Assembly: GCA_903839085.1 (NCBI GenBank)
Contig: CAIMBE010000155.1
Span: 1 to 48,186 of the forward strand
Source of the DNA: an uncultured beta proteobacterium
Lineage (GTDB): Bacteria; Pseudomonadota; Gammaproteobacteria; Burkholderiales; Burkholderiaceae_C
Direction: 5' to 3'
DNA length: 48,186 nucleotides
The first letter of the stretch is position 1. Every line of letters starts with the position of its first letter. Below, piece after piece: positions 17,495 to 34,484 of this stretch. The notes under the pieces were generated by a model. The model saw only the letters and a list, made by a program, of their open reading frames with translations. It was not told the DNA's origin and searched no databases. The position numbers and the translations under genes were made by a program.

Positions 17495-17692
17495 TCAAAA
17501 AAACAGTAGTCTGAAGCGAGGCCGAATGCTAGCGCATGAAGTGCCGTCGAGTCGCTGGCCAAACCGTGCGTCGCCCGGTTTTTCCGGTCTACCTGCAAAT
17601 TTCTTAAGCCAAATGAAGGAACTCAGGCCTGCTTTGAGACAAAGTCCTCACCACTCGCGCCTCGCCGCGTTTTTATTATTTCAGGAGACTCC

Positions 17693-17866
17693 ATGTCGCA
17701 AAACAATCCGTCCGACGCCACGCATGATTCAGGCGAACCGGTTCCGTTCATGCAGCAGTTGCTGGACAACCCGTTCATTCTGCTTTTTCTCGGCGTCATG
17801 GTGCCCATGCTGGTCTATACGCTGTGGGGCGTGATCGACATCCTCACCGTGCCGCTGGCCAAGTAA
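17693..17866 (+). CDS. 57-aa single-helix membrane peptide, putative small subunit of the downstream oxidase-like complex
   Basis: Short gene with a clean ribosome site (AGGAG, about 6 nt before ATG 17693). The protein has a polar N-terminus (MSQNNPSDATHDSGEPVPF) and one hydrophobic helix at about residues 26-46 (PFILLFLGVMVPMLVYTLWG), ending VPLAK. It precedes the CuA subunit gene by 51 bp, where ba3-type oxidases of other bacteria carry a tiny subunit IIa (CbaD) or similar. I see no enzymatic motif. Role as a structural subunit is inferred from position, size and topology. It begins the long plus-strand cluster and is the best candidate for the first translated gene of the operon. Confidence 0.75.
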   Translation: MSQNNPSDATHDSGEPVPFMQQLLDNPFILLFLGVMVPMLVYTLWGVIDILTVPLAK

Positions 17867-17917
17867 CCGTCGTTCCCCGACCCCCGATTCAAACGCGCAT
17901 AAAAGGAGACACTCACA

Positions 17918-18478
17918 ATGAGCGCCATATTGCCCCCTGCTGAACGACTCTGGTGGAAGCATCCGCTGGACCGTGTTGAAGGTACCTGGATCGTCATCGC
18001 GCTGGTATGGTGCCTGACGATGTTTGCCATGATGATTGGCTGGCACATCTGGGGTAAGCAAAACCTCTCGACCGAAACCTATAAGACCACGCCCGACAAG
18101 TTCACGCAAAAGGCGCAGGCGGTGGTGGACAAGTACACCGTGCGCACCGAGACCTACAAGAACGCGGGCGGTCAGGAAGAGAAGATTCCGGTCGTCGCAC
18201 CGCCAGCCGGCAGCGATGTCTATCTGGTTGCGCGCCTGTGGAATTTCTGGCCCATCATCGAACTCGAGAAGGACAAGACCTATCGCCTGCACATCACGTC
18301 GCTGGACTACAACCACGGCTTCTCCCTGCAGCCGGCCAACATCAACATCCAGATCGTGCCGGGCTACGAGCATGTGGTGAAGGTCACGCCGAACCAGGCC
18401 GGCACCTACTCGGTTGTCTGCAATGAATACTGCGGCATCAACCACCACACCATGGTAAGTCGTATTTACGTGAAATAA
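17918..18478 (+). CDS. Haem-copper oxidase/NO reductase subunit II with CuA site
   Basis: 186-aa membrane-anchored cupredoxin. It has one N-terminal helix (about residues 22-44), a charged linker (50-95), and a C-terminal CuA domain. All CuA ligands are visible: His133 (DYNHGFS) and the motif CNEYCGINHHTM with Cys168, Glu170, Cys172, His176 and Met179. It accepts electrons from a cytochrome c and passes them to subunit I. The single helix and short size resemble ba3/B-family subunit II rather than the two-helix aa3 type. The stop lies 10 bp before the ATG of subunit I, and a ribosome site overlaps the stop. In a NO-reducing reading this would be the NorS-like subunit. Confidence 0.9.
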   Translation: MSAILPPAERLWWKHPLDRVEGTWIVIALVWCLTMFAMMIGWHIWGKQNLSTETYKTTPDKFTQKAQAVVDKYTVRTETYKNAGGQEEKIPVVAPPAGSDVYLVARLWNFWPIIELEKDKTYRLHITSLDYNHGFSLQPANINIQIVPGYEHVVKVTPNQAGTYSVVCNEYCGINHHTMVSRIYVK

Positions 18479-18488
18479 GGTGGCACAG

Positions 18489-20186
18489 ATGACAACAACA
18501 ACTTACCGGACCTGCCCTCGTTCAGGCCTGCAATTCGAATCCCAGGCTGAGAAGCTGATGATCGTCAACGCCTTTGTGGCGGTTGTGGCGCTGCTGGTCG
18601 GCGGCATCCTTGCAATCGGCGTGGTCCTCACGCGCTGGCCTGCCGTGCACTGGCTCGGGGCCGATACCTTCTACATGGTGCTCACAGCGCACGGCATCGA
18701 CATGCTGATCTTCTGGATCATCTTCTTTGAAATCGCCGTGCTGTACTTTGCCTCATCGACGCTGCTGCGTTGTCGACTGGCAACGCCCAAGGTGGCCTGG
18801 GCCGCCTTCGTGCTGATGCTGATCGGCGCGGTGACCAACAACGTCGCCGTGTTCCAGGGCGGCTCCAGCGTGATGATGACCTCCTATGTGCCGATGATGG
18901 CCTCGCCCTGGTTTTACCTTGGGCTGATCCTGTTCGCTGTCGGCGCGCTGATCGGCTGCTTTGTCTTCTTCGGCACGCTGGTCGTGGCCAAGCGCGAGAA
19001 GACCTATCAGGGCTCGGTGCCGCTGGTGACTTTCGGCGCCATCACGGCGGCGATCATCGCCGTGTTCACGATTGCCTCGGGCGCCATCATCCTGATCCCG
19101 ACCTTCCTGATGTCGGTGGGCATCATCAAGGAGGTCGACCCGCTGATCTACCGCACCATCTGGTGGGCCTTTGGTCACTCATCGCAGCAGATCAACGTCG
19201 CCGCCCATATCTCGATCTGGTACGCGGTCGCCGCCATCGCCTTCGGCGCCAAGCCGATGTCCGAGCGGGTCAGCCGCGGCGCCTTCCTGCTCTACATCCT
19301 GTTCCTGCAACTGGCCAGCGCGCATCACCTGCTGGCCGACCCGGGCGTCAGCACGGCGTGGAAGGTTGTCAACACCAGCTACTTCATGTACTTCGCGGTG
19401 CTGGCCTCGATGATCCACGGCTTGACGATTCCCGGCGCGATCGAGGTGGCGCAACGCGCCAAGGGCTACAACAACGGACTGTTCGAGTGGCTGCGCAAGG
19501 CGCCCTGGGGCAACCCGGTATGGTCGGGCATCTTCATCTCGATCATCGGCTTCGGCTTCCTGGGCGGCATCTCGGGCGTCATGATGGGCACCGAACAGCT
19601 CAACATGATCATCCACAACACGGTCTATGTGCCGGGTCACTTCCACGCCACCGTGGTGGTCGGCACGACGCTGACCTTCATGGCGCTGACCTTCTTCCTG
19701 ATCCCGGTGCTGTTCAAGCGCGAGATGATCAATCCGGGACTGGCCAAATGGCAGCCCTATCTGTTTGGCTTCTCGATGTACTTCTTCTGCCTCGTGATGA
19801 TGGGTGCCGGCACCCTTGGCGTCTCGCGGCGGCATTGGGACATGAGCTTTGGCGGAGCCGCCATGGCCTACGAATGGCCGGGCGCGGCTTACCTGATGAT
19901 GGGCCTGGTCGGCATCGCTGGCATCGCGGCCATCGCCGGTGGTGCGATCTACATCTACATCACGGTCGGCTCGCTGCTGTGGGGCAAGAAGCTTGCCGGC
20001 GGTGACGTCAGTGCCAAGTTCACGCCGATTCCGCCCACCGCGCCAACCGCCGCCGCGCAGAGCTATGGCTCGGCCGGTTTCGCGGCACCGGGAACTTTTG
20101 CCCTGGCGATGGTGTTTCTGGTCTCGTTTATCCTGTACTACTTCATCAACTGGAAATACCTGTCGCAAGTGTGGGGCTTGAGCTGA
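18489..20186 (+). CDS. Haem-copper subunit I, B-family-like, lacking the cross-linked tyrosine (candidate NO reductase)
   Basis: 565-aa, about 13-helix protein. All six metal-ligand His are visible: His68 (LTAHGIDML, low-spin haem), His230 (WWAFGHSSQQI, CuB), His279-His280 (ASAHHLLAD, CuB), His384 and His386 (VPGHFHATVV, high-spin and low-spin haem). In oxygen reductases of the A and B families the CuB His is followed by P-x-V-Y, whose Tyr is cross-linked to a CuB His. Here the sequence is H-S-S-Q-Q, so position H+4 is Gln234. No Tyr stands near the HH pair either. Loss of this Tyr is characteristic of NO reductases; Gln or similar at this place is what I recall for B-family-related NORs (eNOR/sNOR). 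I start at ATG 18489 with AAGG 8 nt upstream; GTG 18480 is an alternative. Oxygen reduction cannot be excluded by sequence alone. Confidence 0.85.
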   Translation: MTTTTYRTCPRSGLQFESQAEKLMIVNAFVAVVALLVGGILAIGVVLTRWPAVHWLGADTFYMVLTAHGIDMLIFWIIFFEIAVLYFASSTLLRCRLATPKVAWAAFVLMLIGAVTNNVAVFQGGSSVMMTSYVPMMASPWFYLGLILFAVGALIGCFVFFGTLVVAKREKTYQGSVPLVTFGAITAAIIAVFTIASGAIILIPTFLMSVGIIKEVDPLIYRTIWWAFGHSSQQINVAAHISIWYAVAAIAFGAKPMSERVSRGAFLLYILFLQLASAHHLLADPGVSTAWKVVNTSYFMYFAVLASMIHGLTIPGAIEVAQRAKGYNNGLFEWLRKAPWGNPVWSGIFISIIGFGFLGGISGVMMGTEQLNMIIHNTVYVPGHFHATVVVGTTLTFMALTFFLIPVLFKREMINPGLAKWQPYLFGFSMYFFCLVMMGAGTLGVSRRHWDMSFGGAAMAYEWPGAAYLMMGLVGIAGIAAIAGGAIYIYITVGSLLWGKKLAGGDVSAKFTPIPPTAPTAAAQSYGSAGFAAPGTFALAMVFLVSFILYYFINWKYLSQVWGLS

Positions 20187-20195
20187 TTCGATGAC

Positions 20196-20217
20196 GAGGG
20201 CACCCGCGGGTGCCCTC
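20196..20217. terminator. Perfect 22-bp palindrome after subunit I (terminator or processing hairpin)
   Basis: GAGGGCACCCG/CGGGTGCCCTC is a perfect inverted repeat with no loop bases left over, 10 bp after the subunit I stop. It is not followed by a T run, so it may be a weak or attenuating terminator, or a hairpin protecting the 3' end of the upstream message. It separates the structural oxidase genes from ctaB. Confidence 0.6.
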
Positions 20218-20274
20218 CCCAATCAAGCTGCTTGAACCGGAGCTCTGAATATTTTGAACCCTGCATCAAACACC

Positions 20275-21156
20275 ATGAACAGCACCCCAAGACCGCTCAC
20301 CCGCCTTGCCCGAGACGTACTTGGCGTGTTCAAGCTTCGCATCGGGTTCATGATCATGATCACCGCGCTGGTCGGCATGGTGGTGTCGACCGGCCCCAGC
20401 CCCGGGATTGTCAAAGTGCTGGTCCTGGCCCTGACGGTTTTGCTGGCATCGGCCAGCGCCGGCGCCTTCAATCAATACTACGAGCACGACAGCGACCGCC
20501 TGATGGCGCGCACGCGCGGGCGCGCCTTTGTCACCGGCGCGCTGCCGCACACGCCGGCCTGGCTGGTGCTGATCGCGCTGCTTCTGACCGCCGCGGTCTG
20601 GGCCGCTGCGCACTGGCTCAACCCGAGCGCCGCCATGTTTGTCTTCCTGGGCGCCTTTTTCTATGCCGTGGTCTACACCGTCTGGCTCAAGCGCCGGAGC
20701 TGGTTGAACATCGTGATTGGCGGCCTGGCCGGCAGCTTTGCCGTGCTGGCCGGCGCCGCCGCGGTCGACCCGGTGCTCGGTCCGCTGCCGTGCCTGCTGG
20801 CGGCCGTGCTGTTCCTCTGGACGCCACCCCATTTCTGGAGCCTGGCGATCGCCAATCAGGCCGAGTACGCGGCCGCGGGTGTGCCGATGCTGCCGGTGGT
20901 GGTGGGCGTGCCGCGCGCCTCCCGCATCGTGCTGCTGAGCACGATCGCGCTGGCCATCACTTCGCTGCTGCCGGTCTTCTTTGGCGCCGGCATCATCCAT
21001 TTTTTCGGCGCTGCCACGGGCGGCGGCTACTTTGTCTACAAGGCCTGGCAACTGGCACGCGCGCCCTCGCGCAAGACCGCGATGGGTTCTTTTTTCGCCT
21101 CCCTGATTCAATTGAGCCTGCTGCTGGTCGCGACCACCCTGGACAGCTTGTTGTGA
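20275..21156 (+). CDS. ctaB: Protoheme IX farnesyltransferase (haem O synthase)
   Basis: UbiA-family membrane prenyltransferase that adds the farnesyl group to haem b, giving haem O. About 293 aa with eight or nine helices. The prenyl-diphosphate/Mg-binding region is NQYYEHDSDRLMARTRGR (about residues 67-84), slightly altered from the usual N-x3-D-x3-D pattern. The second signature region YTVWLKRRSWLNIVIGGLAG and PPHFWSLA are also present. I chose ATG 20275; a TTG at 20254 would add seven residues. Neither start has a strong ribosome site. Its place between subunit I and SCO1 suggests that the oxidase-like complex contains a farnesylated haem (O or A type). Confidence 0.93.
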   Translation: MNSTPRPLTRLARDVLGVFKLRIGFMIMITALVGMVVSTGPSPGIVKVLVLALTVLLASASAGAFNQYYEHDSDRLMARTRGRAFVTGALPHTPAWLVLIALLLTAAVWAAAHWLNPSAAMFVFLGAFFYAVVYTVWLKRRSWLNIVIGGLAGSFAVLAGAAAVDPVLGPLPCLLAAVLFLWTPPHFWSLAIANQAEYAAAGVPMLPVVVGVPRASRIVLLSTIALAITSLLPVFFGAGIIHFFGAATGGGYFVYKAWQLARAPSRKTAMGSFFASLIQLSLLLVATTLDSLL

Positions 21157-21181
21157 TCGGCATTGAGTCACAATAACGTTC

Positions 21182-22090
21182 ATGTCTAGCCATCGGGACG
21201 CGGATCGTCGGAGACCGTGTTTATTGTCTCTCAGGGGAATGCAGGCCTGTTTGGTCGTGGCCTGCGCGATCGTCTGGTCGAGCGCCAGCGGCGCGCCGGC
21301 CGACAGCGGGCCGCAGCCCAGCGCGAGCGGGCTTGACCCGGCCGCGGCCCTGCGCGCCAGCCAGGCGGTGGTCGGCAAGCAGGTTAGCGATTTCACTTTG
21401 CTCGATCGCTCCGGGCAGCCGGTGCGTCTGTCGCAGTACCGTGGCAAGCCGCTGCTGGTGAGCTTTATCTACAGCGGCTGCTTTCAGGTCTGCCCGCTGA
21501 CCACGCGCTCGCTGCAGAGCGCGATCGAGGCCGGTCGCGATGTCTTCGGAACACGCCAGTTCAATGTCGTGAGCATCGGATTCAATCAGCCGGCGGACTC
21601 GCCGCAGGCGCTCAAGGCCTTTGCCGCGCAGCATCGCATTGACCAGCCGAACTGGGAGTTCCTCAGTCCGCACGCCTCCATCGTCGAGGCATTGACGCGC
21701 GAGTTCGGCTTCAGCTACCTCTCGAGCGCGGCCGGCTTTGATCACGTGCTGCAGGTCACCCTGCTCGACGCGCAAGGTCGCGTCTACCGCCAGATCTACG
21801 GTGAACAGCTCGACGCCAACGCGCTGGGCGAGCCGATCAGGCAGTTGCTCGACAGCGCGCCCGTGCCCCAGCAGATCGCGCTCGACGATCTGGTCGACCG
21901 CATACGGCTGCTGTGCACCGTGTACGACCCGAAGACCGGTACCTACCGCGTGCAGTACGGCCTGCTGATCGAGATCGCCGGCGGCGTCACCTTTGCGCTG
22001 GCGATGCTCTGGTTCTTTCTTGCCGAATGGCGCACGCAGAGGCGGGCGCGGCGTCAGCGCTCAAATCAGCAGCACCAGGCTGCGACCTGA
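21182..22090 (+). CDS. SCO1/SenC-type copper chaperone with C-terminal membrane anchor
   Basis: 302 aa. The thioredoxin-like SCO domain (about residues 65-220) holds the copper-binding SGCFQVCP (Cys-x3-Cys) and the later His in FDHVLQVTLLD. SCO proteins deliver copper to or reduce the CuA site of subunit II. A hydrophobic N-terminal stretch (about 20-37) looks like a signal or anchor. Unusually, there is a second membrane helix near the C-terminus (about 258-282, EIAGGVTFALAMLWFFLAEW) followed by a basic tail. The gene is 25 bp after ctaB. Gene order CuA subunit - subunit I - SenC recalls the norSY-senC clusters of ammonia oxidisers, as I remember them. Confidence 0.9.
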   Translation: MSSHRDADRRRPCLLSLRGMQACLVVACAIVWSSASGAPADSGPQPSASGLDPAAALRASQAVVGKQVSDFTLLDRSGQPVRLSQYRGKPLLVSFIYSGCFQVCPLTTRSLQSAIEAGRDVFGTRQFNVVSIGFNQPADSPQALKAFAAQHRIDQPNWEFLSPHASIVEALTREFGFSYLSSAAGFDHVLQVTLLDAQGRVYRQIYGEQLDANALGEPIRQLLDSAPVPQQIALDDLVDRIRLLCTVYDPKTGTYRVQYGLLIEIAGGVTFALAMLWFFLAEWRTQRRARRQRSNQQHQAAT

Positions 22091-22105
22091 TTATGGATTT
22101 TTCCA

Positions 22106-22307
22106 GAAATGGTGGCAGGCCAAACCCCTCTGCGCATGGCGGGAGGATCAGGCCGCCGGGGCACTCGGCTTCGCGCCGGGTTGGTGTGCAAGCTGCGCAA
22201 GCCACCAATGCTCGCTGCCGAGGGCGCCGCAGTGGGTGGCGTAGCGAAATCAAGGAGGAGGCCAAGGGCCGGGGGACATTCGCGCAGCCACCCACTGCGG
22301 CACCCTC
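22106..22307. repeat. Intergenic repeat unit plus a 21-bp inverted repeat
   Basis: The 316-bp gap between senC and the next gene holds no convincing gene. At 22106-22127 lies a sequence (GAAATGGTGGCAGGCCAAAC..) matching 37673-37694 at 19 of 22 positions, with patchy similarity for about 50 bp more. Further on, 22220-22240 and 22287-22307 form an inverted repeat (GAGGGCGCCGCAGTGGGTGG against GCCACCCACTGCGGCACCCT) with one mismatch in 21, and a few more pairs inward. The resulting RNA could fold into a long hairpin with a loop of about 46 nt. Confidence 0.65.
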
Positions 22308-22406
22308 GGGGCCCACAAAAGACAGAATCTCGGTTCTTGAATTGCGAGAGCAATCTGCACCAGACAGACCTGGCCAGAACGTTGTCGTAAATTTCGGAAC
22401 TCAATA

Positions 22407-24353
22407 ATGACCAACCCATCTCCCAACCCGGGGCAGCGCGCGTTCTTTGCTGTCGAAAGCGTATTCAACACCCTCTTTGGCGAGCGACTGAACCCGTTCT
22501 ACCACCTGGGCGCCATCGCCTATTTTCTGTTCTGGGTGGTGACCGGCACCGGCTTGTACCTGTACGCCTTTTTCGAAACCAGCGTCGTCCACGCCTACGG
22601 TTCGGTGCAGGCGCTGACGCATGGGCAGCCCTATGTCGGCGGCCTGCTGCGCAGCCTGCACCGCTATGCCTCGGACGCCCTGGTGCTGGTGATCGTGCTG
22701 CACCTGCTGCGCCATTTCGTGTTTGACCGGCACCGCGGATTTCGCTGGTTCTCCTGGGTTTCCGGCGTCGCGATCCTCTGGCTGACCTATGCCTCTGGCA
22801 TCAACGGCTATATGCTGCCCTGGGATCGGCTGGCCCAGTTCGTTGTCACGGCGACCACCGAGTGGTTTGATGTGCTGCCGGTGATCGGCGGCTCCATGAC
22901 GCGCAATTTCATCACCAATGCCAATGTCAGCGACCGGCTGTTCTCGCTGCTCTCGTTTGTCCATATCGGCCTGCCGCTGAGCGTCATGGCGCTGCTCTGG
23001 GTGCATACCCAGCGCGTCCCGGCGGCCAGGACCAATCCGCCGCGCAGCCTGATGATCGGCCTGCTGGCCTCGCTCAGCGTGCTCTCGCTGATCAAGCCGG
23101 CCCTCAGCCAGGCCGCGGCGGACATGGGAACGGTGGTGACGCACCTGGAATTCGACTGGTTCTATCTGCCCACCTACGCGCTGATCGGGCACTGGGGTGC
23201 GGCCAACACCTGGCTGCTGGTGGGTGGCGCCACCGCGCTGCTGCTGGCGCTGCCCTGGCTGCCGCCGCGCCGCCTTCGCGGCGTCAAATCGTGGAGCATG
23301 GCGGTGCATCCGGACGATCGCATCGTCGCCGTGCGTGTCGGCGAAACGCTGCTCGACGCGGGCCTGCGCGAAGGCATGCCGATGCCCTTTGAGTGCCGCA
23401 ACGGCGCCTGTGGCGTGTGCAAGTGCACGCTGCGTCACGGCGAGGTGAAGCTGCAGGCGCACCTGGAGTCGGCCCTCAGCGCGGCCGAGCGTGCCAGCGG
23501 CCAGACGCTGCTGTGCTGCGCCGAACCGCTGACCGAGGTCGAGATCGAGTACCTGCCGCTGCCGGGCGCGCGCGCGGCGCCGGTCAGGCAGCATCTGGCG
23601 CGGGTCATACGGATGGAGCTGTTGAACAGCGACGTCATGCGTCTGGACCTGCAGATCGACGGCGGCGCGAGCCTGCCGTTTCACGCCGGCCAGTACATCA
23701 ACGTGATTCTGGGCAACGGTGAGCGGCGCAGCTTCTCGTTCGCCAGCGCGCCGCACGCCGCGACCGGCATCGAACTGCATGTGCGCCGGGTCGAGGGCGG
23801 GCGCTTCACGCCCGGCGTCTTCACGACCCTGCGCCCGGGCGATTCCCTGCGGATCGAGGGCCCGCTGGGCGCCTTCACCCTGCGCGAGGACAGCGCGAAG
23901 CCGATTCTTTTTGTCGCCGGCTCGACCGGTTTCGCGCCGGTCAAGAGCATGCTCGAGCATGCCTTCCACTGCGGCCTGAAACGCGACATGATGCTCTACT
24001 GGGGCGTGCGCCGGCGCGCCGACCTGTACCTCGGCGCGCTGGCCGAGCAGTGGGCGCTGGAGCATGCCAACTTCAAGTTCATCCCGGTGCTCTCAGATCC
24101 GCAGGCCGATGACCGCTGGAGCGGGCGCACCGGCCTGGTCCACGAAGCCATTCTTGCGGATTTTCCGGATCTCTCGAGCCACCAGGTCTATGCCTGCGGC
24201 TCGGTGCAGATGGTCCAGGCCGCCCAGCCCGCCTTCGCGCTGCGCGGCCTGTCCAGCGACGACTGCTTTTCGGACGCCTTTCACCTCGCGCCGCAGCGAC
24301 CCTTGCAGGGCAGGGACGCCGATCTGGTCAAACTCGGAGGCTCCCATGTCTAG
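22407..24353 (+). CDS. Cytochrome b - [2Fe-2S] ferredoxin - FAD/NAD(P) reductase fusion
   Basis: 648 aa, three modules in one chain. Residues 1-290 are a cytochrome b/b6-like membrane part with His pairs spaced by 14: His85/His99 (LHRYASDALVLVIVLH) and His186/His200 (VHIGLPLSVMALLWVH), enough for two b haems. Residues about 295-385 are a plant-type ferredoxin with Cys330, Cys335, Cys338 and Cys370 or 371. Residues about 390-630 are a ferredoxin-reductase module: RRSFSFASAP (flavin), FTTLRPGDSL, FVAGSTGFAPVKSM (nucleotide) and YACGSVQMV. The likely path is NAD(P)H to FAD to 2Fe-2S to haem b and then quinone or the oxidase-like subunits; direction is inferred. It overlaps the next gene by 8 bp. 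I know no characterised enzyme with this layout. Confidence 0.85.
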   Translation: MTNPSPNPGQRAFFAVESVFNTLFGERLNPFYHLGAIAYFLFWVVTGTGLYLYAFFETSVVHAYGSVQALTHGQPYVGGLLRSLHRYASDALVLVIVLHLLRHFVFDRHRGFRWFSWVSGVAILWLTYASGINGYMLPWDRLAQFVVTATTEWFDVLPVIGGSMTRNFITNANVSDRLFSLLSFVHIGLPLSVMALLWVHTQRVPAARTNPPRSLMIGLLASLSVLSLIKPALSQAAADMGTVVTHLEFDWFYLPTYALIGHWGAANTWLLVGGATALLLALPWLPPRRLRGVKSWSMAVHPDDRIVAVRVGETLLDAGLREGMPMPFECRNGACGVCKCTLRHGEVKLQAHLESALSAAERASGQTLLCCAEPLTEVEIEYLPLPGARAAPVRQHLARVIRMELLNSDVMRLDLQIDGGASLPFHAGQYINVILGNGERRSFSFASAPHAATGIELHVRRVEGGRFTPGVFTTLRPGDSLRIEGPLGAFTLREDSAKPILFVAGSTGFAPVKSMLEHAFHCGLKRDMMLYWGVRRRADLYLGALAEQWALEHANFKFIPVLSDPQADDRWSGRTGLVHEAILADFPDLSSHQVYACGSVQMVQAAQPAFALRGLSSDDCFSDAFHLAPQRPLQGRDADLVKLGGSHV

Positions 24354-24864
24354 CCCCCTTTCGGCGCCGCTGCGCTATCTGTTGCAGGCACTGGCCTACG
24401 CCGCGTTCGCCGCCGTTGTCGCCTACTTTTCCAGTTCGCCCATGTACCGGCAGCTGGGCGACCAGGAGGCGGTGCTCAAGCTGTCGTTCAGCCACTCGGG
24501 ACAGCTCAAGTTCGCCTGCCGCGAGCGCAGCGCGCAGGAGCTCGCCAAGGTCGAACCCAACATGCGCAACAAGATGGACTGCCCGCGCGAACGCGCCGCG
24601 GTCCTGGTCGAACTCGACATGGACGGCAAGCCGCTGTACCGTGTCAGCACCCCCCCGCTGGGCCTGCGCAAGGACGGCGCTGCCACGGTCTATCGGCGCC
24701 TGGCCATTCCCGCCGGCGCACACCAATTCAGCGCACGCCTGGCCGACGGGCCCGAGGGCGCCATCAACTATTCGCGCAGCGTCAACGTCGACCTGGCTCC
24801 AGGACAGGTCCTGATCATCGACTTTCTGACTGGAAGCGGCGGCTTCGTCTTCACGCACAGCTGA
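24346..24864 (+). CDS. Unknown membrane-anchored periplasmic protein of the respiratory cluster
   Basis: 172 aa, not recognised. One N-terminal helix (about residues 10-29, YLLQALAYAAFAAVVAYFSS) probably anchors a periplasmic domain. The domain looks beta-rich (KLSFSHSGQLKFAC, YRRLAIPAGAHQFSARL, VNVDLAPGQVLIIDF) and has two Cys (58 and 79) that could form a disulphide or bind a metal or haem. It has no CxxCH. The ATG at 24346 has GGAGG 5 nt upstream and lies within the end of the preceding fusion gene; the next gene starts 9 bp after its stop. Tight coupling between two cytochrome b fusions suggests an accessory or assembly subunit. Confidence 0.7.
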   Translation: MSSPLSAPLRYLLQALAYAAFAAVVAYFSSSPMYRQLGDQEAVLKLSFSHSGQLKFACRERSAQELAKVEPNMRNKMDCPRERAAVLVELDMDGKPLYRVSTPPLGLRKDGAATVYRRLAIPAGAHQFSARLADGPEGAINYSRSVNVDLAPGQVLIIDFLTGSGGFVFTHS

Positions 24865-24873
24865 TCCTGGGCG

Positions 24874-26430
24874 ATGACGACAGTCACCCGCTTGTTGCGC
24901 AACGCCGATGAGTTGGCGACCAGCGCATTCGATCGCGCGTTCGAGGCGGCGCACAATCCCTGGCGTCATCTGGGGGCGCTGGCGTTTGTCTGCCTGCTGC
25001 TGGTCGTGCTCAGCGGCATCGTCGCCTATGCGCTGTATGACACCAGTGTCAGCGGCGCCTATCAATCGGGGCTGCGACTGCAGAACGATCCGACCGGACT
25101 CGGTCGCCTGCTGCGCGGCCTGCACCGCTACGGTGCCGACGCCTGCATGCTGCTGACACTGCTGCATCTGGCGCGCGAAGTCCTGCGCGGTCACTTTCGT
25201 GGCGTGCGCTGGTTTTCCTGGCTGACCGGCATCCCGCTCCTGTGGCTGCTGTGGATTGCCGGCATCACCGGCTTGTGGCTGCTGTGGGACCAGCGCGCGA
25301 TCTTCAGCGTCACCGCCACCGCCGAGTGGCTGCAGGCGCTGCCGCTGGGCGCCGAACTGCTGGCGCGCAACTTCCTCACCGCCGCGACCCTCAACGACCG
25401 CTTCTTCTCACTGATCATGTTCGTTCACATCGGCATGCCGCTCCTGGTGCTGGCCGCGATGTGGGTTCATGTGCAGCGCGTCTCCCGCGTGCGCATCTGG
25501 CCGCCGCGCTCGCTGGCACAGGCCAGCCTGGCGATGCTGGTCTTGCTGGCGCTGCTGGTGCCGGTGCTGAGCCTCGGGCCGGCCGACACCGGCCATGTCC
25601 TGCAGCGTCTTTCGATCGACTGGTTCTACCAGTTCCTGCATCCCCTGGTGGACCGCCTGTCGGCGCCCGGCGTCTGGCTGCTCGCCGTTGTGCTGACGCT
25701 GGCGCTGGCGCTCGTGCCCTTGCTGCCCGCGCGCGGGCAGCAGCGGCGCGCGGCGGCACGGGTCGACCCGGCCAACTGCAACGGCTGTTCGCGCTGCGTC
25801 GCCGACTGCCCGTTTGGCGCCGTGACCATGGTCGCGCGCACCGATGCCAGCCGACACCCGGCGCAGGCGCAGGTCGACAGCGCCCTGTGTGCGGCGTGCG
25901 GCATTTGCGTCGGCTCCTGCCCCTCGGCGACGCCGTTTCGGCGCGGCGAAGCGATTGTCTCGGGCATCGAGATGCCGCAAACCCCGGTCGCGGACCTGCG
26001 CCGTGAACTTCAGCGCAAGATCAAGGCCCTGAGCGGCGCCAGGAAGATTGTCGTGATCGGCTGCCGCCAGGCGGCGGACTTCGAGGCGCTGGCCGATGGC
26101 GCCACGGCCGTGCTGACGCTCGAGTGCGCCGCGATGCTGCCGCCCTCCTTTCTTGAGTATGCGATGCGCATGGGCGCAGCGGGGGTGCTGATCGCCGGCT
26201 GCCGCGAGTCCGATTGCGAATTCCGGCTCGGCGATCGCTGGGTCAAGGAGCGCCTGCTGGGCCAGCGCGAGCCGCGCCTGCGCGCAGCGGCCCCGCTTGA
26301 CCGGATTGAGGTGGTATGGTCGGGTCGCGATATGCTTGGCGCTGGCGCAGCCGTCGCGAATTTGCGCGGTCGGCTGCCCGATTCGAACGCTCCCGATGCC
26401 CATCACCTTGAAAGAATCGATGCAACATGA
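24874..26430 (+). CDS. Cytochrome b - 2[4Fe-4S] ferredoxin - MvhD-like fusion
   Basis: 518 aa. Residues 1-285 are a cytochrome b-like membrane module with the same His spacing as the gene before the last one: His84/His98 and His185/His199. Residues 300-350 hold two [4Fe-4S] motifs, CNGCSRCVADCP (Cys302, 305, 308, 312) and CAACGICVGSCP (Cys339, 342, 345, 349). Residues about 390-465 resemble MvhD, the iron-sulphur subunit linking hydrogenase to heterodisulphide reductase: IGCRQAADF, LECAAMLPPSF and GVLIAGCRESDCEF (Cys397, 418, 443, 448). MvhD-type domains usually relay electrons between a soluble partner and a flavoprotein complex. This chain thus looks like a membrane port for ferredoxin-type electrons. 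The stop overlaps the next start (ATGA). The function is inferred. Confidence 0.83.
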   Translation: MTTVTRLLRNADELATSAFDRAFEAAHNPWRHLGALAFVCLLLVVLSGIVAYALYDTSVSGAYQSGLRLQNDPTGLGRLLRGLHRYGADACMLLTLLHLAREVLRGHFRGVRWFSWLTGIPLLWLLWIAGITGLWLLWDQRAIFSVTATAEWLQALPLGAELLARNFLTAATLNDRFFSLIMFVHIGMPLLVLAAMWVHVQRVSRVRIWPPRSLAQASLAMLVLLALLVPVLSLGPADTGHVLQRLSIDWFYQFLHPLVDRLSAPGVWLLAVVLTLALALVPLLPARGQQRRAAARVDPANCNGCSRCVADCPFGAVTMVARTDASRHPAQAQVDSALCAACGICVGSCPSATPFRRGEAIVSGIEMPQTPVADLRRELQRKIKALSGARKIVVIGCRQAADFEALADGATAVLTLECAAMLPPSFLEYAMRMGAAGVLIAGCRESDCEFRLGDRWVKERLLGQREPRLRAAAPLDRIEVVWSGRDMLGAGAAVANLRGRLPDSNAPDAHHLERIDAT

Positions 26431-27812
26431 TTGAGACTCCCTCTGCCGGCGGCTTTCAGTTCGACCTTGCGGTGCCGCAGGACGCGCGCAAGACGCTGGC
26501 CATGGCCTGGCTGGCTCTGGGCCTGGCGGCGCTGCTGGCATCCGGGCTGTTCTCGATCCTGCTGGTGCTCTCGCGCACGCCGCAGTTGCAGACCCTGTTC
26601 CCGGTGGCCGACTTCTTTCGCGTGGCGCTGGTGGTGCACGTCGACCTGTCGGTGCTGGTCTGGTTTCTGGCCTTTGGCGGCGCGCTCTGGACCCTGGGCG
26701 GAACCACGCGCTGGCAGCCGCTGGCCTGGCTGGCGTTCCTGCTGGCGGCGCTCGGTACGCTGGCGATGTGCGTCGCGCCCTTTGCCCAAACTGCAACACC
26801 GGTGATGGCCAATTACGTTCCGGTGCTCGACGGCAGCGTCTTTCTGAGCGGCCTGGCGCTGTTCGGCGCCGGCATCGCGCTGCTGTGCCTGCGCTCGATG
26901 CTGGCGGCGGCGCCGGTCGGCGTGCACATCAGCGGTCACGGCGCGCTGCGCTTTGGCCTCAACGCGGCCATGGTGGCCACCGCCATCGCCGTGCTGGCCT
27001 TTGCCTGGACCTGGCTCGCGCTGCCGCGCGCCCTGGACCCGCGGGCCTACTATGAACTGCTGTTCTGGGGCGGCGGCCACGCTTTGCAATTCGCCTACAC
27101 CCTGCTGATGCTGATCGGCTGGATCTGGCTCGCCTCGTCGCTCGGCAGCAGGCTGCGCCTGTCACCGCGGGTCGTGACCCTGCTGTTCGGGATCGCCCTG
27201 ATCGCGGTCTTCCTGACCCCGATCATCTACCTCGCCTACGATGTCGCCTCGGTCGAACACCACCGCCTGCAGACGCTGTTGATGCGCTATGGCGGCGGCC
27301 TGGTGATTGGACCGATCGCGCTCGCGGTGATCTGGTCGATCTGGCCCCTGGCGCGCCTGACCCCGGCGGCGCGGCCCTTGCGCTCGAGCCTGATTGCCTC
27401 GCTGCTGCTGTTTTGCGCGGGCGGCATGATCGGCTTCATGATCAGCGGCAGCAATGTGCGCATTCCCGCGCACTACCATGGCTGCATCGTCGGCGTCACG
27501 CTGGCCATGATGGGCATGGTCTATCGGCTGCTGCCGCAACTCGGCTTCGCGGCGCCGGCGTCGCGCGCTGCGGCCTGGCAGCCCGCCATCTATGGCGCAG
27601 GCCAGTTGATGCATATCGTCGGCCTGGTGTGGTCCGGCGGCTATGGCGTGCAGCGCAAGGTCGCCGGCAGCGAGCAGGTGCTGCGCTCGGCCCAGGAGGT
27701 CTGGGGCATGGGACTGATGGGCCTGGGCGGTCTGGTCGCGATTGTGGGCGGCATCATGTTCTTGCTGATCGTGCTGCGCTCCCTGCGCCAGGCAAACCGA
27801 AACCGGCCATGA
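26427..27812 (+). CDS. Second, divergent haem-copper-oxidase-like subunit I (C-family resemblance)
   Basis: 461 aa, about 12 helices. It retains six candidate metal His: His71 (VVHVDLSVLVW, low-spin haem), His218 (FWGGGHALQF, CuB), His278-His279 (VEHHRLQTLL, CuB), His349 and His351 (IPAHYHGCIVG). The layout resembles CcoN of cbb3 oxidases (compare WYGHN and GHVHSG). Position H+4 after the CuB His is Phe. The C-family Tyr normally stands six residues before the HH pair; here Asp272 is there and Tyr271 is one place off. So it may or may not have the cross-link Tyr. No CcoO or CcoP partner is present. The start overlaps the previous stop and the end overlaps the CtaA-like gene, both by 4 bp. Confidence 0.8.
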   Translation: MIETPSAGGFQFDLAVPQDARKTLAMAWLALGLAALLASGLFSILLVLSRTPQLQTLFPVADFFRVALVVHVDLSVLVWFLAFGGALWTLGGTTRWQPLAWLAFLLAALGTLAMCVAPFAQTATPVMANYVPVLDGSVFLSGLALFGAGIALLCLRSMLAAAPVGVHISGHGALRFGLNAAMVATAIAVLAFAWTWLALPRALDPRAYYELLFWGGGHALQFAYTLLMLIGWIWLASSLGSRLRLSPRVVTLLFGIALIAVFLTPIIYLAYDVASVEHHRLQTLLMRYGGGLVIGPIALAVIWSIWPLARLTPAARPLRSSLIASLLLFCAGGMIGFMISGSNVRIPAHYHGCIVGVTLAMMGMVYRLLPQLGFAAPASRAAAWQPAIYGAGQLMHIVGLVWSGGYGVQRKVAGSEQVLRSAQEVWGMGLMGLGGLVAIVGGIMFLLIVLRSLRQANRNRP

Positions 27813-28624
27813 GCGAAACCCCTGACCTGTTGCCGAGCGGCGGCGCCGACGCGCGCACCTGGTTGCGCCGCATCGGCGCTTTGGGCGCCCTGCTGGCGCT
27901 GATCATTCTTGGGTCCAGCATCTTCTTGCGTCTGACCAGCGTTCTCGACCCGCAGGGCCATGCCAGTTCAACGCTGGCAGCGCCCCTCGAGCAGGCAATT
28001 CGCCTGCTGCACCGGCTCTGCGCATCGGGCGTCGCGCTGCTGGCGCTGTCCGCCGTGGTGCTGCGCTGGAAGCAGCGCCCGGCCGCGCCGCAGACGAGCC
28101 AGGCGGTGTTCGGGATTGTTGCCGCAACCCTGATCCTGGCGCTGATCGGCCCTCTCACACCCGGCTATCGCCTGGCCGGGGTCACCGTGGTGAACGTGGT
28201 CTGCGGCGTGCTGCTGCTGCTGTCCTTCTGGTGGCTGCGCGACTGGGCGGCGAGCGGCCCGGCCGGGGTCCGGCCGTTCGACGCCTTTTCGTGGGCCGCC
28301 CTGGCCGCCCTGCTGCTGCAGGTCGGCACCGGTGCGGCGGCCAGTGCCTGGGAAATGCACGCGGTGCACTGGCCGGCTCTGGTGCACCTGGCCTGCGCGG
28401 TGTTGTGCGCCATCCTGATCGGCGCGGTCCTGCTCGACCGGCGCAGCACACCCGGGCCGGGCGGGCGCGGCTGGCTCGTCGCCGGCTTGCTCGCGGGCCA
28501 GTTGTTGCTCGGCTATCTGCTGATGTGGCAGGACCCGCGTTCCGTCGCGCTATCTTTTTTTCATGCCATGCTGGCGCCCCTGCTGGCGGGCGCGCTTGTC
28601 TCCCTTCTCAAGCACCGATCGTAG
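27809..28624 (+). CDS. CtaA/Cox15-like protein, short and lacking one usual haem-ligand His
   Basis: 271 aa, about eight helices in two four-helix halves, the fold of haem A synthase (oxidises haem O to haem A). Recognised by GSSIFLRLTSVLD in helix 1 (compare G-x-x-VRLTxSGL), LLHRLCASG in helix 2 (His68), LVHLACAV in helix 6 (His193) and FFHAMLAP in helix 8 (His252). Helix 4 reads VVNVVCGVLLLL where a His is expected, so one of the four ligands is missing, and it is shorter than usual for this family. It may make an altered haem or have another role. It overlaps the preceding gene by 4 bp. Together with ctaB it suggests special haems in this cluster. Confidence 0.75.
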   Translation: MSETPDLLPSGGADARTWLRRIGALGALLALIILGSSIFLRLTSVLDPQGHASSTLAAPLEQAIRLLHRLCASGVALLALSAVVLRWKQRPAAPQTSQAVFGIVAATLILALIGPLTPGYRLAGVTVVNVVCGVLLLLSFWWLRDWAASGPAGVRPFDAFSWAALAALLLQVGTGAAASAWEMHAVHWPALVHLACAVLCAILIGAVLLDRRSTPGPGGRGWLVAGLLAGQLLLGYLLMWQDPRSVALSFFHAMLAPLLAGALVSLLKHRS

Positions 28625-28677
28625 TTCTCCGTACAATGCGCCAAAACCTGGATATAACCAGGATGGAGACTTGTCCG

Positions 28678-29376
28678 ATGGACGTTGATGATTTCAATAT
28701 TCCCCGCTTTCTGGCGGTGCTACCCCTGTTCCATGATCTCTCGCCCGCCGAGTTGGAGCGTGTGGCGCTGGGCTGTCAGGTGCGCCGGCTTGGGCGCGGT
28801 GACACCATTTTCCGCTTCGGTCAGCCCTGCGAAGAGTTTCACGTCGTGATTTCGGGACAGGTCAAGCTGTTTGCGATTTCGCCGACCGGCCAGGAAAAGG
28901 TCATTGAACTGGTGGCCCCCGGTCACAGCTTTGCCGAAGCGCTGATGTTTACGGGAAAACCTTATATCCTGAACGCCGAGTCGCTGGCCAGCACGCTGCT
29001 GCTGACCGTCAGCAAGCAGTCCGTGTTCGACGAGATCGAGCGCGATCCGCGCTTTTCCATGCGCATGCTGGCGGGCATTTCCCGACGCCTGCACGGTCTT
29101 GTGCGCGACATCGAGTCGGGCGCCCTGCACAGCGGAATGCAGCGCGTCATCGGCTACCTTTTGAGTGAGCGCCAGGCCGAAACCGGCGATGCGCCGCAGA
29201 CTTTCACGGTCTCGCTGCCGGTGAGCAAGGCGACGCTGGCTTCGCGCCTTTCGTTGACGCCGGAGTACTTCTCCAAGGTGCTGCATGAACTCGAGACGCA
29301 AAAACTGATCCAGATCGACAAGCGCGATATCCGGATCGTCGACGTGACGCGGCTGGCCTGCTACGGCGCTCACTAG
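28678..29376 (+). CDS. Crp/Fnr-family regulator, Dnr/NnrR-like
   Basis: 232 aa. The N-terminal cyclic-nucleotide-binding-like fold (about 15-130) includes GDTIFRFGQPCEEFHVVISGQVKLFAIS; the C-terminal winged helix holds VSKATLASRLSLTPEYFSKVLHEL. There is no N-terminal cluster of Cys as in oxygen-sensing FNR (only Cys33, 51 and 227), so it fits the Dnr/NnrR group, whose members respond to NO, often via haem. I start at ATG 28678, with GGAG 9 nt upstream; an ATG 15 bp earlier is possible. It is 53 bp after the CtaA-like gene and converges with the nirN-like gene. Control of nirS and the NO cluster is the likely role. Confidence 0.85.
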   Translation: MDVDDFNIPRFLAVLPLFHDLSPAELERVALGCQVRRLGRGDTIFRFGQPCEEFHVVISGQVKLFAISPTGQEKVIELVAPGHSFAEALMFTGKPYILNAESLASTLLLTVSKQSVFDEIERDPRFSMRMLAGISRRLHGLVRDIESGALHSGMQRVIGYLLSERQAETGDAPQTFTVSLPVSKATLASRLSLTPEYFSKVLHELETQKLIQIDKRDIRIVDVTRLACYGAH

Positions 29377-29386
29377 GCGCCCGGCT

Positions 29387-30973
29387 TCAGTGCGAGGTGC
29401 CTTCGGAGCGGGAGAGCTTGTTTCCCACGTTGTATTTGCCGACCGGTTTGGACATTGGCAGGCGCTTGAATTCCTTGAACGTCAGCGCGTCATACACGAT
29501 CAGGGCGCCATCCATCTCGCCCAGACTGGCCAGCGCGTAGCGACCGTCGCGCGTGAACTCGATGTGCGACAGGGTGCGACCCGGTTCGCGCACCTGGGCG
29601 ACCGCCTCCAGCGTGCGCTTGTCGATGATCGTGATGGTGTCCCGGGCGCTGGGACTGAGCATCGAGTCGACCCAGGCGTAGGCCGAGTTCTCATGGCTGC
29701 GCATGAAAAATCCGGGCCCCGGCGTGCTGATGGTCTTGATCACCTTCCAACTCTTCATGTCCACCACCGTCAGCGCGCCGTCCTTCAGGTTCGGCGAGGC
29801 CAGCACCACGGTGTCTTTCCAGGCAAAGGTGATGCCGGAACCCAGATGCGGCATGCCCGGCAGCGCAAAGTCGGCAATGCGCCGGCGCACATCCAGATTC
29901 ACCACCTGGGCGCCAACCGGCTTGTCACCCTGGCTGCGCGTGCTGCCGACCGCGTGACGGTAGCCCTGATCGAAGAAGAAGTCTTCCAGGGGTTCATCCA
30001 GCGGCGTGCGCCGCACCCCCAGGAAACCGGGCTTGGCCAGGCCCTCGCCCATTTTGTAGTCGTGCACCAGGCCATCGAAAATGGGCTCGGCCTTTGGATC
30101 GTAGGAAATTTCCCACAGTTCGGGGATGTCCTTGAGCGCCACGATAAAGCTGTGGCGGGGCGTGGCGTCATAGACCGCTGCCACGCGCGATGCGGTTTTG
30201 CCATCGGGCGTGATGGCCGGGTAGCTGCGCACCAGGTTCAGGTCCGCGTCAAACAGCGTCACTGTGTTGGGCAGGTAGTTGGCCGCCATCACCCAGCGGC
30301 CATCACCCGACACCGCCACATTGCGCATGTTCAGTCCGGCCCTCACCTCGGCCACCACGGTCAGGTTCCATAAATCATATTTGGTGATCCAGCCGTCACG
30401 CGACCCAAAATAGACGAAGCGTCCATCGGGCGTGAATTTCGGCCCGCCGTGCAGGGCAAAGCGCGAGGGGAAACGGTGAATCGGCTCGAAGAGCTCACCG
30501 TCGACCAGCGATACGTGGTGATCACCGCCTTCGACCACAACGAACAGATTCATCGGATCGGCACGCCACAGCGGCCTCGCCGGCAGCGCCGCCGCCCCCG
30601 GCACCTCGATTCTGGACTGGCGTATGTCGGCCTGCGTCCACTCGGGGGCCGGCTGCAGCGGTCGGTAGATCCAGCGCACCAGCTGCTCTATCTCCTGCGG
30701 TTTGAGCAACGCGCCAAAGCCTGCCATCTGGGTCGCGGGCCGGCCTTTGCTGATGACGGCACCGGCCTCTGCCTGCCGCAAACGCTCCAGGCTCTGCGAC
30801 AGCAGTGCCGGGCCCATGCCGCCCAGACGCTGCGCCCCGTGGCAAGACGCGCAATGGCGAGAATACAGTTGCTCCGCGGGGTCCGAATCGGTGACGGCGA
30901 GCGCCGCAGCGGCCATGCAGGCGGACAGAAAAAAGCCTGCGCCAAGGCGCAGGCTGATGGCTGCAAAGCGCAA
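29387..30973 (-). CDS. nirN: NirN-like c-type/d1-type cytochrome (haem d1 maturation)
   Basis: About 528 aa. A signal peptide (hydrophobic FAAISLRLGAGFFLSAC then AAAALA) is followed by a c-type haem domain with CASCHG, then an eight-bladed cytochrome d1-like domain (HGGPKFTPDGRFVYFGSRDGW, AVSGDGRWVMAANYLPNT, HLGSGITFAWKDT). The closest named member is NirN, which oxidises dihydro-haem d1 to d1 and hands it to NirS. The short c domain separates it from NirS, and the haem domain separates it from NirF. I start at TTG 30973, 9 bp after the c551 gene's stop, as AGGA lies 5 nt upstream; GTG 31000 is the alternative. An intrinsic terminator falls inside the signal-peptide codons. The other d1 biosynthesis genes are not in the window. 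Confidence 0.8.
   Translation of the reverse strand: MRFAAISLRLGAGFFLSACMAAAALAVTDSDPAEQLYSRHCASCHGAQRLGGMGPALLSQSLERLRQAEAGAVISKGRPATQMAGFGALLKPQEIEQLVRWIYRPLQPAPEWTQADIRQSRIEVPGAAALPARPLWRADPMNLFVVVEGGDHHVSLVDGELFEPIHRFPSRFALHGGPKFTPDGRFVYFGSRDGWITKYDLWNLTVVAEVRAGLNMRNVAVSGDGRWVMAANYLPNTVTLFDADLNLVRSYPAITPDGKTASRVAAVYDATPRHSFIVALKDIPELWEISYDPKAEPIFDGLVHDYKMGEGLAKPGFLGVRRTPLDEPLEDFFFDQGYRHAVGSTRSQGDKPVGAQVVNLDVRRRIADFALPGMPHLGSGITFAWKDTVVLASPNLKDGALTVVDMKSWKVIKTISTPGPGFFMRSHENSAYAWVDSMLSPSARDTITIIDKRTLEAVAQVREPGRTLSHIEFTRDGRYALASLGEMDGALIVYDALTFKEFKRLPMSKPVGKYNVGNKLSRSEGTSH
30929..30955 (-). terminator. Intrinsic terminator inside the 5' codons of nirN
   Basis: On the minus strand AGCCTGCGCC-TT-GGCGCAGGCT (30955-30934) is a 10-bp perfect stem followed by a run of six T (30934-30929). 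It lies about 27 nt after the stop of the cytochrome c551-like gene and would end the nirS-nirM message. It also encodes part of the nirN signal peptide, so nirN transcription would need read-through or its own start. Confidence 0.85.
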
Positions 30974-30981
30974 GAGCGTCC

Positions 30982-31296
30982 TTACAGTTTCAGAATCCAC
31001 TCCACGGCGGTTTTCAGATCCGCATCGCTGATCTTCTCGACCGGGTTGGGCGACATCGGAATCGGACCCCAGACGCCCGGACCGCCAGCACGCACTTTGG
31101 GCAGCAGTTTGGCGAGCACATCCTGGCCCTTGTACTTCTTGGCAATGTCTTTCAGCGCCGGTCCCACCAGTTTGGCATCGAGCTTGTGGCAGGCCATGCA
31201 GCCCGACTTGGTCATGATCTCTTCGCCGGTGGCCGCCTGCGCGCCAAGGCTGAGCAAGGCCGCGCTGGCGGCCAACAACAGATTCAATGTTTTCAT
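30982..31296 (-). CDS. nirM: Cytochrome c551-like electron donor to nitrite reductase
   Basis: 104-aa periplasmic class I c-type cytochrome. Signal peptide MKTLNLLLAASAALLSLGAQA, then GCMACHKLD (haem attachment CxxCH) and MSPNPVEKISD, whose Met is the likely sixth ligand, as in cytochrome c551/c8. Start at ATG 31296 has GGA 8 nt upstream in AAGGAAACTGAA. It is 46 bp downstream of nirS in the same direction. It probably donates electrons to NirS and perhaps to the CuA subunit encoded at 17.9 kb. Confidence 0.9.
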   Translation of the reverse strand: MKTLNLLLAASAALLSLGAQAATGEEIMTKSGCMACHKLDAKLVGPALKDIAKKYKGQDVLAKLLPKVRAGGPGVWGPIPMSPNPVEKISDADLKTAVEWILKL

Positions 31297-31342
31297 TTCA
31301 GTTTCCTTCAAAAATGGGGCGCCAGCAAGGCGCCCCTTGCCG

Positions 31343-33169
<1,827 letters not shown>

Positions 33170-33191: not shown

Positions 33192-33250
33192 CCTTAATCT
33201 GACATAAGGATCAGGCAAACTACCTTAAGACCTAAGGTTCACTCTCCTTA
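33192..33250. promoter_or_regulatory. Array of five alternating CCTTA/TAAGG half-sites
   Basis: CCTTA (33192-33196), TAAGG (33205-33209), CCTTA (33223-33227), TAAGG (33233-33237) and CCTTA (33246-33250) alternate in orientation within 59 bp. The middle pair forms a perfect 6-5-6 dyad ACCTTA-AGACC-TAAGGT (33222-33238); the first pair forms a dyad with an 8-bp spacer. They lie 131 bp or more upstream of the nirS start and about 230 bp upstream of the divergent binding-protein gene. They do not match the FNR/Dnr consensus TTGAT-N4-ATCAA, so another regulator may bind here. Confidence 0.55.
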
Positions 33251-33476
33251 TGCAGCCCTTCACGGGTGCTCTGCCGACCGGGTGCCCGCCGGACCGGCGG
33301 CATGGCCTGGCGCCGAGCACCGGACCATGCCCCAAGCAAAGGTCAATTTCAGTCTCTGTTTGGAATTGACAAGGCTGCCGAGACGATCGCAAACTCAGGG
33401 AAAACTCTGGTTTTCCTTTGTGTCGGCTAAGCGCTGCAGACCAGCAGAGAAGTGGCGTGATCGGGAGGTTCCTCCA
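33251..33476. promoter_or_regulatory. Leader of the binding-protein gene with two inverted repeats
   Basis: Non-coding stretch before the plus-strand operon. GTCAATT (33342-33348) and AATTGAC (33364-33370) form an inverted repeat with a 15-bp spacer. GGAAAAC-TCTG-GTTTTCC (33399-33416) forms a 7-bp stem with a four-base loop about 60 bp before the start codon. I see no convincing sigma-70 promoter pair. These could be operator or leader hairpin elements; no assignment to a known regulator is possible. Confidence 0.4.
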
Positions 33477-34481: not shown

Positions 34482-34484
34482 TGC

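Follow-up and report, generated by a model that had tools for sequence, protein, structure and literature searches.

A cluster of eleven intact genes, all on the plus strand, lies at positions 17693-29376 of contig CAIMBE010000155.1 from an uncultured betaproteobacterium; the whole 48,186-nt stretch that was analyzed is called the window here. We consider it likely that this cluster is a nitric oxide (NO) reduction unit of a NirS denitrifier, built from an NO reductase (NOR) of the eNOR class and an accessory redox module, and that the second heme-copper-fold protein of the module, HCO2, is not itself an NO reductase. At the sequence level the cluster contains an eNOR-type NOR that comprises a CuA subunit II, a Gln-bearing subunit I, and the small TM peptide, together with its own cofactor-maturation genes (CtaB, SCO, and CtaA-like) and a Crp/Fnr regulator, all adjoining nirS. 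NO made by NirS would be reduced to nitrous oxide (N2O) by eNOR, with electrons from a cytochrome c entering via CuA. Two cytochrome b fusions (cbFNR and cbMvhD), a membrane-anchored two-Cys protein, and HCO2 would make up an accessory redox module in the membrane that was inherited together with eNOR. In this nitrite reducer, the cluster probably replaces the usual NO-removing enzyme. An earlier note on this stretch had proposed a new NO-consuming module. The module proved to be conserved and tied to nirS, appears to stand in for norB here, and has a promoter palindrome in common with nirS, while the claim that it is wholly new fails at the catalytic core.

The core was assigned from its active site. 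Across 80 aligned subunit I sequences, H233, H282, H283, H387, and H389 were invariant and H71 was kept in 97%, and the ligands of the low-spin heme and high-spin heme and the three CuB histidines are thus retained. In subunit I, GHSSQQ takes the place of the GHPxVY of O2 reductases, and profile alignment to Thermus ba3 placed the second Gln of this motif on the active-site Tyr. This residue, Gln237, was present in 79 of the 80 sequences; the lone Tyr belongs to the O2-type enzyme of locus L092, and a relative outside the 80-sequence set (L219) reads HSTQQ. The Glu-bearing HLWVE motif of cNOR and qNOR was absent from subunit I, with GHSSQQ at that place. Subunit II, encoded immediately upstream, keeps the CuA ligands CxxxC-x3-H-x2-M in 76/76 sequences. 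According to an excerpt of PMC8756737, Gln marks eNOR, Asn marks sNOR and CuA-NOR, Asp marks gNOR, and Glu marks cNOR and qNOR; by this diagnostic Gln, the predicted subunit I and CuA subunit are eNOR, a published if seldom described class. An eNOR is found in one operon with NirK in Ardenticatena (PMC4653789), and eNOR is reported in Gallionellaceae in an excerpt of PMC10734462.

The host genome (3.78 Mb, 98.6% complete, 301 contigs) was searched for other NO-removing enzymes. Neither cNOR nor qNOR was found in the window, and a NorB profile built from three cNorB sequences and one qNorB sequence of other genomes had no match in the host genome (G000). Four PF00115 genes were present: the two in the window and two more, which we take from their motifs to be an aa3-type (HPEVY) and a cbb3-type oxidase. 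The absence of a canonical NOR from the window, as the earlier note had it, therefore extends to the genome, and no norCB was detected elsewhere to handle the NO. No flavodiiron match in the host genome exceeded the cut-off. A PF00115 search of nine other genomes of the genus gave none with the eNOR/HCO2 score pair of the window and three with cNorB; one genome, 74% complete, had no PF00115 match. The lack of the pair in these nine genomes makes the cluster look patchily inherited. The closest named relatives listed include betaproteobacterial metagenome-assembled genomes (MAGs), one of them from Comamonadaceae (subunit I 98% identical).

To place the cluster in a wider context, 200 genomes of the order, including the host, were scored with thresholds of at least 500 bits for subunit I, 400 bits for HCO2, 980 bits for full-length cbFNR, 470 bits to PF02239 for NirS, and 270 bits for NorB. 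Weaker rows were left out, among them the weaker HCO2 rows that include paralogues fused to a TPR domain, and G161 was left out of the nirS count (406 bits, a score range also occupied by second d1-type proteins elsewhere). HCO2 was found in all 19 eNOR genomes and in 0 of the 181 others, and full-length cbFNR was found in 18/19 versus 1/181 (G153, a fragmented genome). nirS was present in 18/19 eNOR genomes compared with 34/181 others (P = 4e-11); the gene set did not occur mainly in organisms without a nitrite reductase. Among the nirS genomes, norB accompanied 7 of the 18 with eNOR and 31 of the 34 without it (P = 1e-4). Eleven of the 52 nirS genomes had eNOR and no NorB match, and three had neither. 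In a second sample of 398 genomes of the phylum (thresholds of at least 600 bits for eNOR and 200 bits for HCO2), HCO2 was found in 29 of 30 eNOR genomes. A single event linking eNOR and HCO2 was not supported, since the eNOR-linked label required four changes on the tree.

Gene neighborhoods gave a similar picture. A scan of named genomes with the HCO2 alignment yielded at least 513 confirmed stretches, from which the best 80 loci were kept; the counts that follow are for the 61 of these in which about 10 kb of sequence was available ahead of HCO2. A near-identical gene set, with its order mostly kept, was present in 60/61 loci. The anchored protein was found in all 61, subunit I, CuA, cbMvhD, and SCO in 60 each, CtaB and the small peptide in 58 each, and cbFNR in 56 (52 in line and 4 on the opposite strand). 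The position of cbFNR shifts (before, after, or divergent) yet the gene is retained, which argues for function rather than inertia. The sole locus without subunit I within about 10 kb upstream (L109:6239-11347) still holds cbFNR, the anchored protein, cbMvhD, and HCO2. Where both flanks were available, nirS was nearby in 16 of 40 loci. Among the matches listed, the carriers that are named isolates were Acidovorax sp. 210-6, Comamonas granuli, Simplicispira hankyongi, Piscinibacter caeni, and Quisquiliibacterium transsilvanicum.

The module and nirS also have a promoter element in common. The palindrome CTTAA-N6-TTAAG, with at most one mismatch, matched twice in the 48 kb (0.07 expected), once before the small-peptide gene and once before nirS; the motif was picked post hoc, from promoter inspection, and its statistics are likewise post hoc. 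In relatives, palindromes of an FNR/DNR-like set were found before 56/71 small-peptide genes and 19/22 nirS genes. The same set was found before none of the subunit I (0/76), CtaB (0/75), and SCO (0/77) genes, and before cbFNR in 17/77, cbMvhD in 12/88, and HCO2 in 3/100. This set was chosen after inspection, the internal genes serve as a soft control, and the relatives provide partial corroboration. DNR, an NO-sensing member of the Crp/Fnr family, acts at TTGAT-N4-ATCAA boxes. This plain box was rejected for the window: it gave 13 matches with up to two mismatches, against 5.8 expected, and none lay before the module or nirS. The boxes of the window are CTTAA-N6-TTAAG-like, and TTGAT-type boxes occur in several relatives. 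The regulator encoded at the end of the cluster belongs to the Crp/Fnr family; the name "Dnr-like" in the earlier note is a guess, and the best NCBIfam match, FtrB, fell below the cut-off. It is from the palindromes only that we infer possible NO control of the module. The nirS promoter itself carries tandem palindromes on the minus strand, CTTAT-N6-TTAAG (33193-33208) and ACCTTA-N5-TAAGGT (about 33222-33238), the first of which also precedes nirS in several close relatives.

Several observations weigh against the proposed NO-reduction unit. The Fisher P values overstate independence because linked genes share ancestry, and absences are not absolute because the genome searches scored only some first-look candidates (up to 5 or 6 per genome in the order sample and up to 3 or 4 in the phylum sample). 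Seven of the 19 eNOR genomes also have a NorB match, G100 (87% complete) carries eNOR without a NirS-level match, and G145, which lacks eNOR, encodes an HCO2 paralogue joined to a TPR domain (222 bits). Of the 368 phylum-sample genomes that had no strong eNOR match, 27 contained HCO2. CtaA is frequent in HCO2 loci lacking strong eNOR, and an SHPAVY-type oxidase motif was found in 6 of 22 HCO2 loci examined. In a betaproteobacterial groundwater MAG (L092:1191-9861), an SHPAVY O2 reductase with CuA replaces eNOR beside HCO2, cbMvhD, CtaB, and a CtaA-like protein, and the accessory module therefore need not be NO specific. Given the 27 phylum-sample genomes and L092, a strictly NO-specific role for HCO2 was dropped.

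The norB genes of the seven carriers and the O2 reductase of L092 would also fit a unit that serves mainly in NO detoxification, or an O2 reductase miscalled as NOR, with no respiratory role. We regard this as unlikely: Gln holds the Tyr position in all but one of the aligned subunits, the genes are associated with nirS and have their promoter motif in common with it, and the Ardenticatena operon pairs eNOR with a nitrite reductase.

The earlier note had counted a second subunit I, our HCO2, among the NO-consuming catalytic subunits. Its fold model (pLDDT 88.7) had heme-copper oxidases as its structure matches, and H71, H349, and H351 were kept in 78/78 sequences, retaining the bis-His low-spin heme and the proximal His; the transmembrane segment (TM) VI His was likewise invariant (78/78). 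These features, and the possibility that NO binds at the high-spin heme, are what speaks for HCO2 as a second, independent NO-consuming subunit. The TM VII ligand columns, by contrast, held His in 0/78 and 10/78 sequences, and Phe occupied the position of Tyr/Glu/Gln/Asn in all 78. In the broad profile alignment to eNOR and in a MAFFT alignment, I267/Y268 align with the TM VII His pair, while an hhalign run with a narrow alignment puts E277/H278 there instead, which would favor a catalytic site. The former placement is preferred because it is gap-free between TM VI and VII and because H278 is Phe in 20/78 sequences. The HCO2 of the window does have an HHR motif, but beyond TM VII, and the second His of this motif was found in just 41% of 101 sequences. 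By sequence, then, HCO2 appears to lack the TM VII pair that a catalytic heme-copper reductase with six histidines would have. For want of these ligands, a second NO reductase was dropped as our leading interpretation, and we now think it quite improbable. HCO2 is probably an electron-transfer or assembly partner, most likely a diheme electron-transfer protein or else a maturation factor.

The genes around HCO2 bear on this choice. CtaB and SCO are encoded in the cluster, and C100, C104, and H188 of SCO were kept in 80/80 sequences. In 33/45 copies, HCO2 is followed within 300 bases by a CtaA-like gene of the same strand, and a CtaA homologue was found in 12 of 17 further HCO2 loci, one of which also has eNOR. 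The CtaA-like protein of the window had no Pfam match; its homologue (L036:10572-11462) matches PF02628 at 1e-29. CtaA/COX15 proteins have four conserved heme-ligand His. Three (H68, H193, and H252) are conserved in the CtaA-like protein, one short of that number. Together, CtaB, SCO, and the CtaA-like protein suggest that the cluster provides for the maturation of heme O/A and of CuA.

Two other settings of HCO2 were noted. In L213:7566-16864, from a class other than that of the window, HCO2 overlaps a full COX15/CtaA gene near a CuA-like cupredoxin with intact ligands, a cytochrome b561, a cNMP-binding protein, SCO, and an SHPAVY oxidase. The loci L024, L027, L028, and L029 (wider stretches L053-L056) encode HCO2 paralogues that carry a TPR domain at the C terminus, with ResB-like and cytochrome c assembly genes near in 4/4 and a multiheme cytochrome near in 3/4.

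HCO2 and the CtaA-like protein could accordingly be read as a maturation system for CuA-type terminal reductases, such as eNOR or SHPAVY oxidases, in which HCO2 would bind or hand on heme or take the electrons of heme A formation. The spacing and frequency of CtaA genes beside HCO2, their overlap in L213, the ctaB and SCO genes of the cluster, and the assembly genes and multiheme cytochromes beside the TPR paralogues all favor it. It leaves the two cytochrome b fusions with their Fe-S and flavin domains unexplained, and the CtaA-like protein keeps three His rather than four. We therefore treat it as a tentative alternative that falls well short of an even chance. With either role, electron transfer or maturation, the neighborhoods suggest that HCO2 works with CuA-type terminal reductases of more than one kind.

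In the NO-reduction unit that we favor, the fusions belong to the accessory module. Both have two heme-His pairs, spaced 14 apart. cbFNR keeps four heme His and four [2Fe-2S] Cys at 99% or more of 79 sequences, and cbMvhD keeps four heme His and 12 Cys at 100% of 90 sequences, eight Cys predicted for [4Fe-4S] clusters and four for FlpD; in both fusions, individual Cys are assigned to clusters from the domains. The natural reading of these sequences is that quinone chemistry is coupled both to NAD(P)H and to a carrier of low potential: through its [2Fe-2S]/FAD part, cbFNR would join the quinone pool with NAD(P)H, and through its 2[4Fe-4S]/FlpD part, cbMvhD would join the same pool with a cytosolic partner of low potential. 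Electrons could enter the chain from NAD(P)H, or quinol could reduce NAD(P)+. The inputs from NAD(P)H and ferredoxin that the earlier note had suggested are plausible from the domains. The anchored protein (C58 and C79 in 100% of 103 sequences) is probably a periplasmic beta-sandwich, as modeled with a pLDDT of 93.9. It is doubled in L035, L038, L087, and L090, one copy after each cytochrome b fusion.

The PEWY motif (Qo) of bc complexes falls at a place where cbFNR has D-W-F-Y (Asp 79/79, Trp 77/79, Phe 75/79, and Tyr 70/79). cbMvhD has the same Asp (90/90) and Trp (90/90), with Phe (63/90) and Tyr (54/90) less conserved than in cbFNR. PEWY was thus absent from both fusions, with Asp-Trp in its stead. 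No Rieske family match was found among the ten module proteins scanned, nor a cytochrome c1 among the genes scanned. On a more speculative view, which we rate as rather unlikely, the four accessory proteins would be a complex that bifurcates the electrons of quinol, with NO reduction as the driving force. At each Qo-like Asp-Trp site, one quinol electron would pass to the CuB-less HCO2, standing in for Rieske protein and cytochrome c1, and on to the CuA of eNOR. The other would be driven uphill via the hemes b, and cbFNR would pass it to NAD(P)+, cbMvhD to a ferredoxin-like partner. If true, NO respiration would directly yield reducing power.

Features of the module and of the adjoining nirS region, with predicted functions and supporting matches
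Feature	Position	Strand	Basis or remark
Palindrome, CTTAA-N6-TTAAG-type, 1 mismatch	17603..17618	+	Putative Crp/Fnr operator of module
Small single-TM peptide, 57 aa	17693..17866	+	72 copies in relatives' loci
eNOR subunit II (predicted), CuA	17918..18478	+	PF00116
eNOR subunit I (predicted), Gln237 replacing active-site Tyr	18480..20186	+	PF00115, 210 bits
CtaB, heme O synthase	20254..21156	+	TIGR01473, 258 bits, over cut-off
SCO/SenC copper chaperone	21182..22090	+	PF02630
cbFNR: bc-type diheme cytochrome b + [2Fe-2S] + FAD/NAD(P) reductase	22407..24353	+	PF00033, PF00111, PF00970, PF00175
Membrane-anchored two-Cys protein	24346..24864	+	No Pfam match
cbMvhD: diheme cytochrome b + two [4Fe-4S] + FlpD/MvhD	24874..26430	+	PF00033, Fer4, PF02662
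HCO2, second COX1-fold protein	26427..27812	+	PF00115, 42 bits
CtaA/COX15-like protein, divergent	27809..28624	+	Homologue L036:10572-11462 matches PF02628
Crp/Fnr-family regulator	28678..29376	+	PF00027, PF13545
NirN-like protein (cytochrome c + d1-type domain)	29387..31000	-	PF02239, PF13442
Cytochrome c, NirM-like	30982..31311	-	PF00034
NirS, cytochrome cd1 nitrite reductase	31343..33097	-	PF02239, 517 bits; cytochrome c domain
Second palindrome, CTTAA-N6-TTAAG-type, 1 mismatch	33193..33208	-	Before nirS

Ten module proteins, all except the small peptide, were scanned for Pfam and NCBIfam domains. The coordinates and strand of the eleven co-directional genes hold as first described, and most assignments agree with the domain matches. 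We liken the small peptide, by analogy, to subunit IIa of ba3-type oxidases. By the coordinates, ATGA stop/start overlaps occur at 26427-26430 and 27809-27812, as had been noticed earlier, and a 316-base gap lies ahead of cbFNR. The regulator gene is convergent with the NirN-like gene, which we take to encode NirN from its domain order; the cytochrome c gene and nirS lie beyond, all three on the minus strand, and the module thus faces nirS-nirM-nirN as described. This cytochrome c is a possible electron donor to CuA. On the other side, a TonB-dependent receptor gene (window 15191-17494, minus strand) is directly divergent from the module. Genes for an NMT1/THI5-like binding protein and then a HAMP-PAS-GGDEF-EAL protein (window 33282-37679) are divergent from nirS.

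A survey limited to cNOR and qNOR would label such nirS bacteria NO emitters although they encode an NO reductase. The scoring of eNOR has begun in at least one recent survey, according to an excerpt of PMC12569097; the accessory half lies outside such NOR scoring in the eNOR literature consulted, part of it as excerpts. The module also exposes a widespread heme-copper-fold family without TM VII copper ligands, the one scanned for above, that is inherited together with two cytochrome b fusions. If NO reduction is joined through these fusions to quinone, NAD(P)H, and carriers of low potential, denitrifiers would have an unrecognized way of handling reducing power. The named isolates among the carriers make this question testable.

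Compared with known systems, the catalytic half resembles eNOR in its six His ligands, in the Gln that replaces the active-site Tyr, and in the CuA subunit II encoded ahead of subunit I, and it differs in being embedded with two cytochrome b fusions, the anchored protein, and HCO2. Such partner genes go unmentioned in the eNOR accounts of PMC4653789 and of the excerpts of PMC8756737, PMC10734462, and PMC12569097. The cluster is like cNOR and qNOR (NorBC and NorZ) in its presumed reaction and its genomic role beside nirS; unlike them, it has Gln in place of Glu and a CuA subunit rather than a cytochrome c subunit or quinol site. HCO2 differs from ba3-like heme-copper oxygen reductases in lacking both the TM VII His pair and the Tyr. 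The fusions recall cytochrome bc1/b6f in their His pairs 14 apart and in having D-W-(F-Y) at what we take to be the PEWY place; they differ in being joined to FNR-type or ferredoxin/FlpD domains, and none of the genes scanned matched a Rieske protein or cytochrome c1. Accumulibacter has a cytochrome b/b6 with fused NAD(P)- and flavin-binding domains, and its apparent likeness to cbFNR is one of domain order. The catalytic half is thus of a known class, and the accessory half, above all HCO2 and the two cytochrome b fusions, is apparently undescribed in the titles and abstract openings found.

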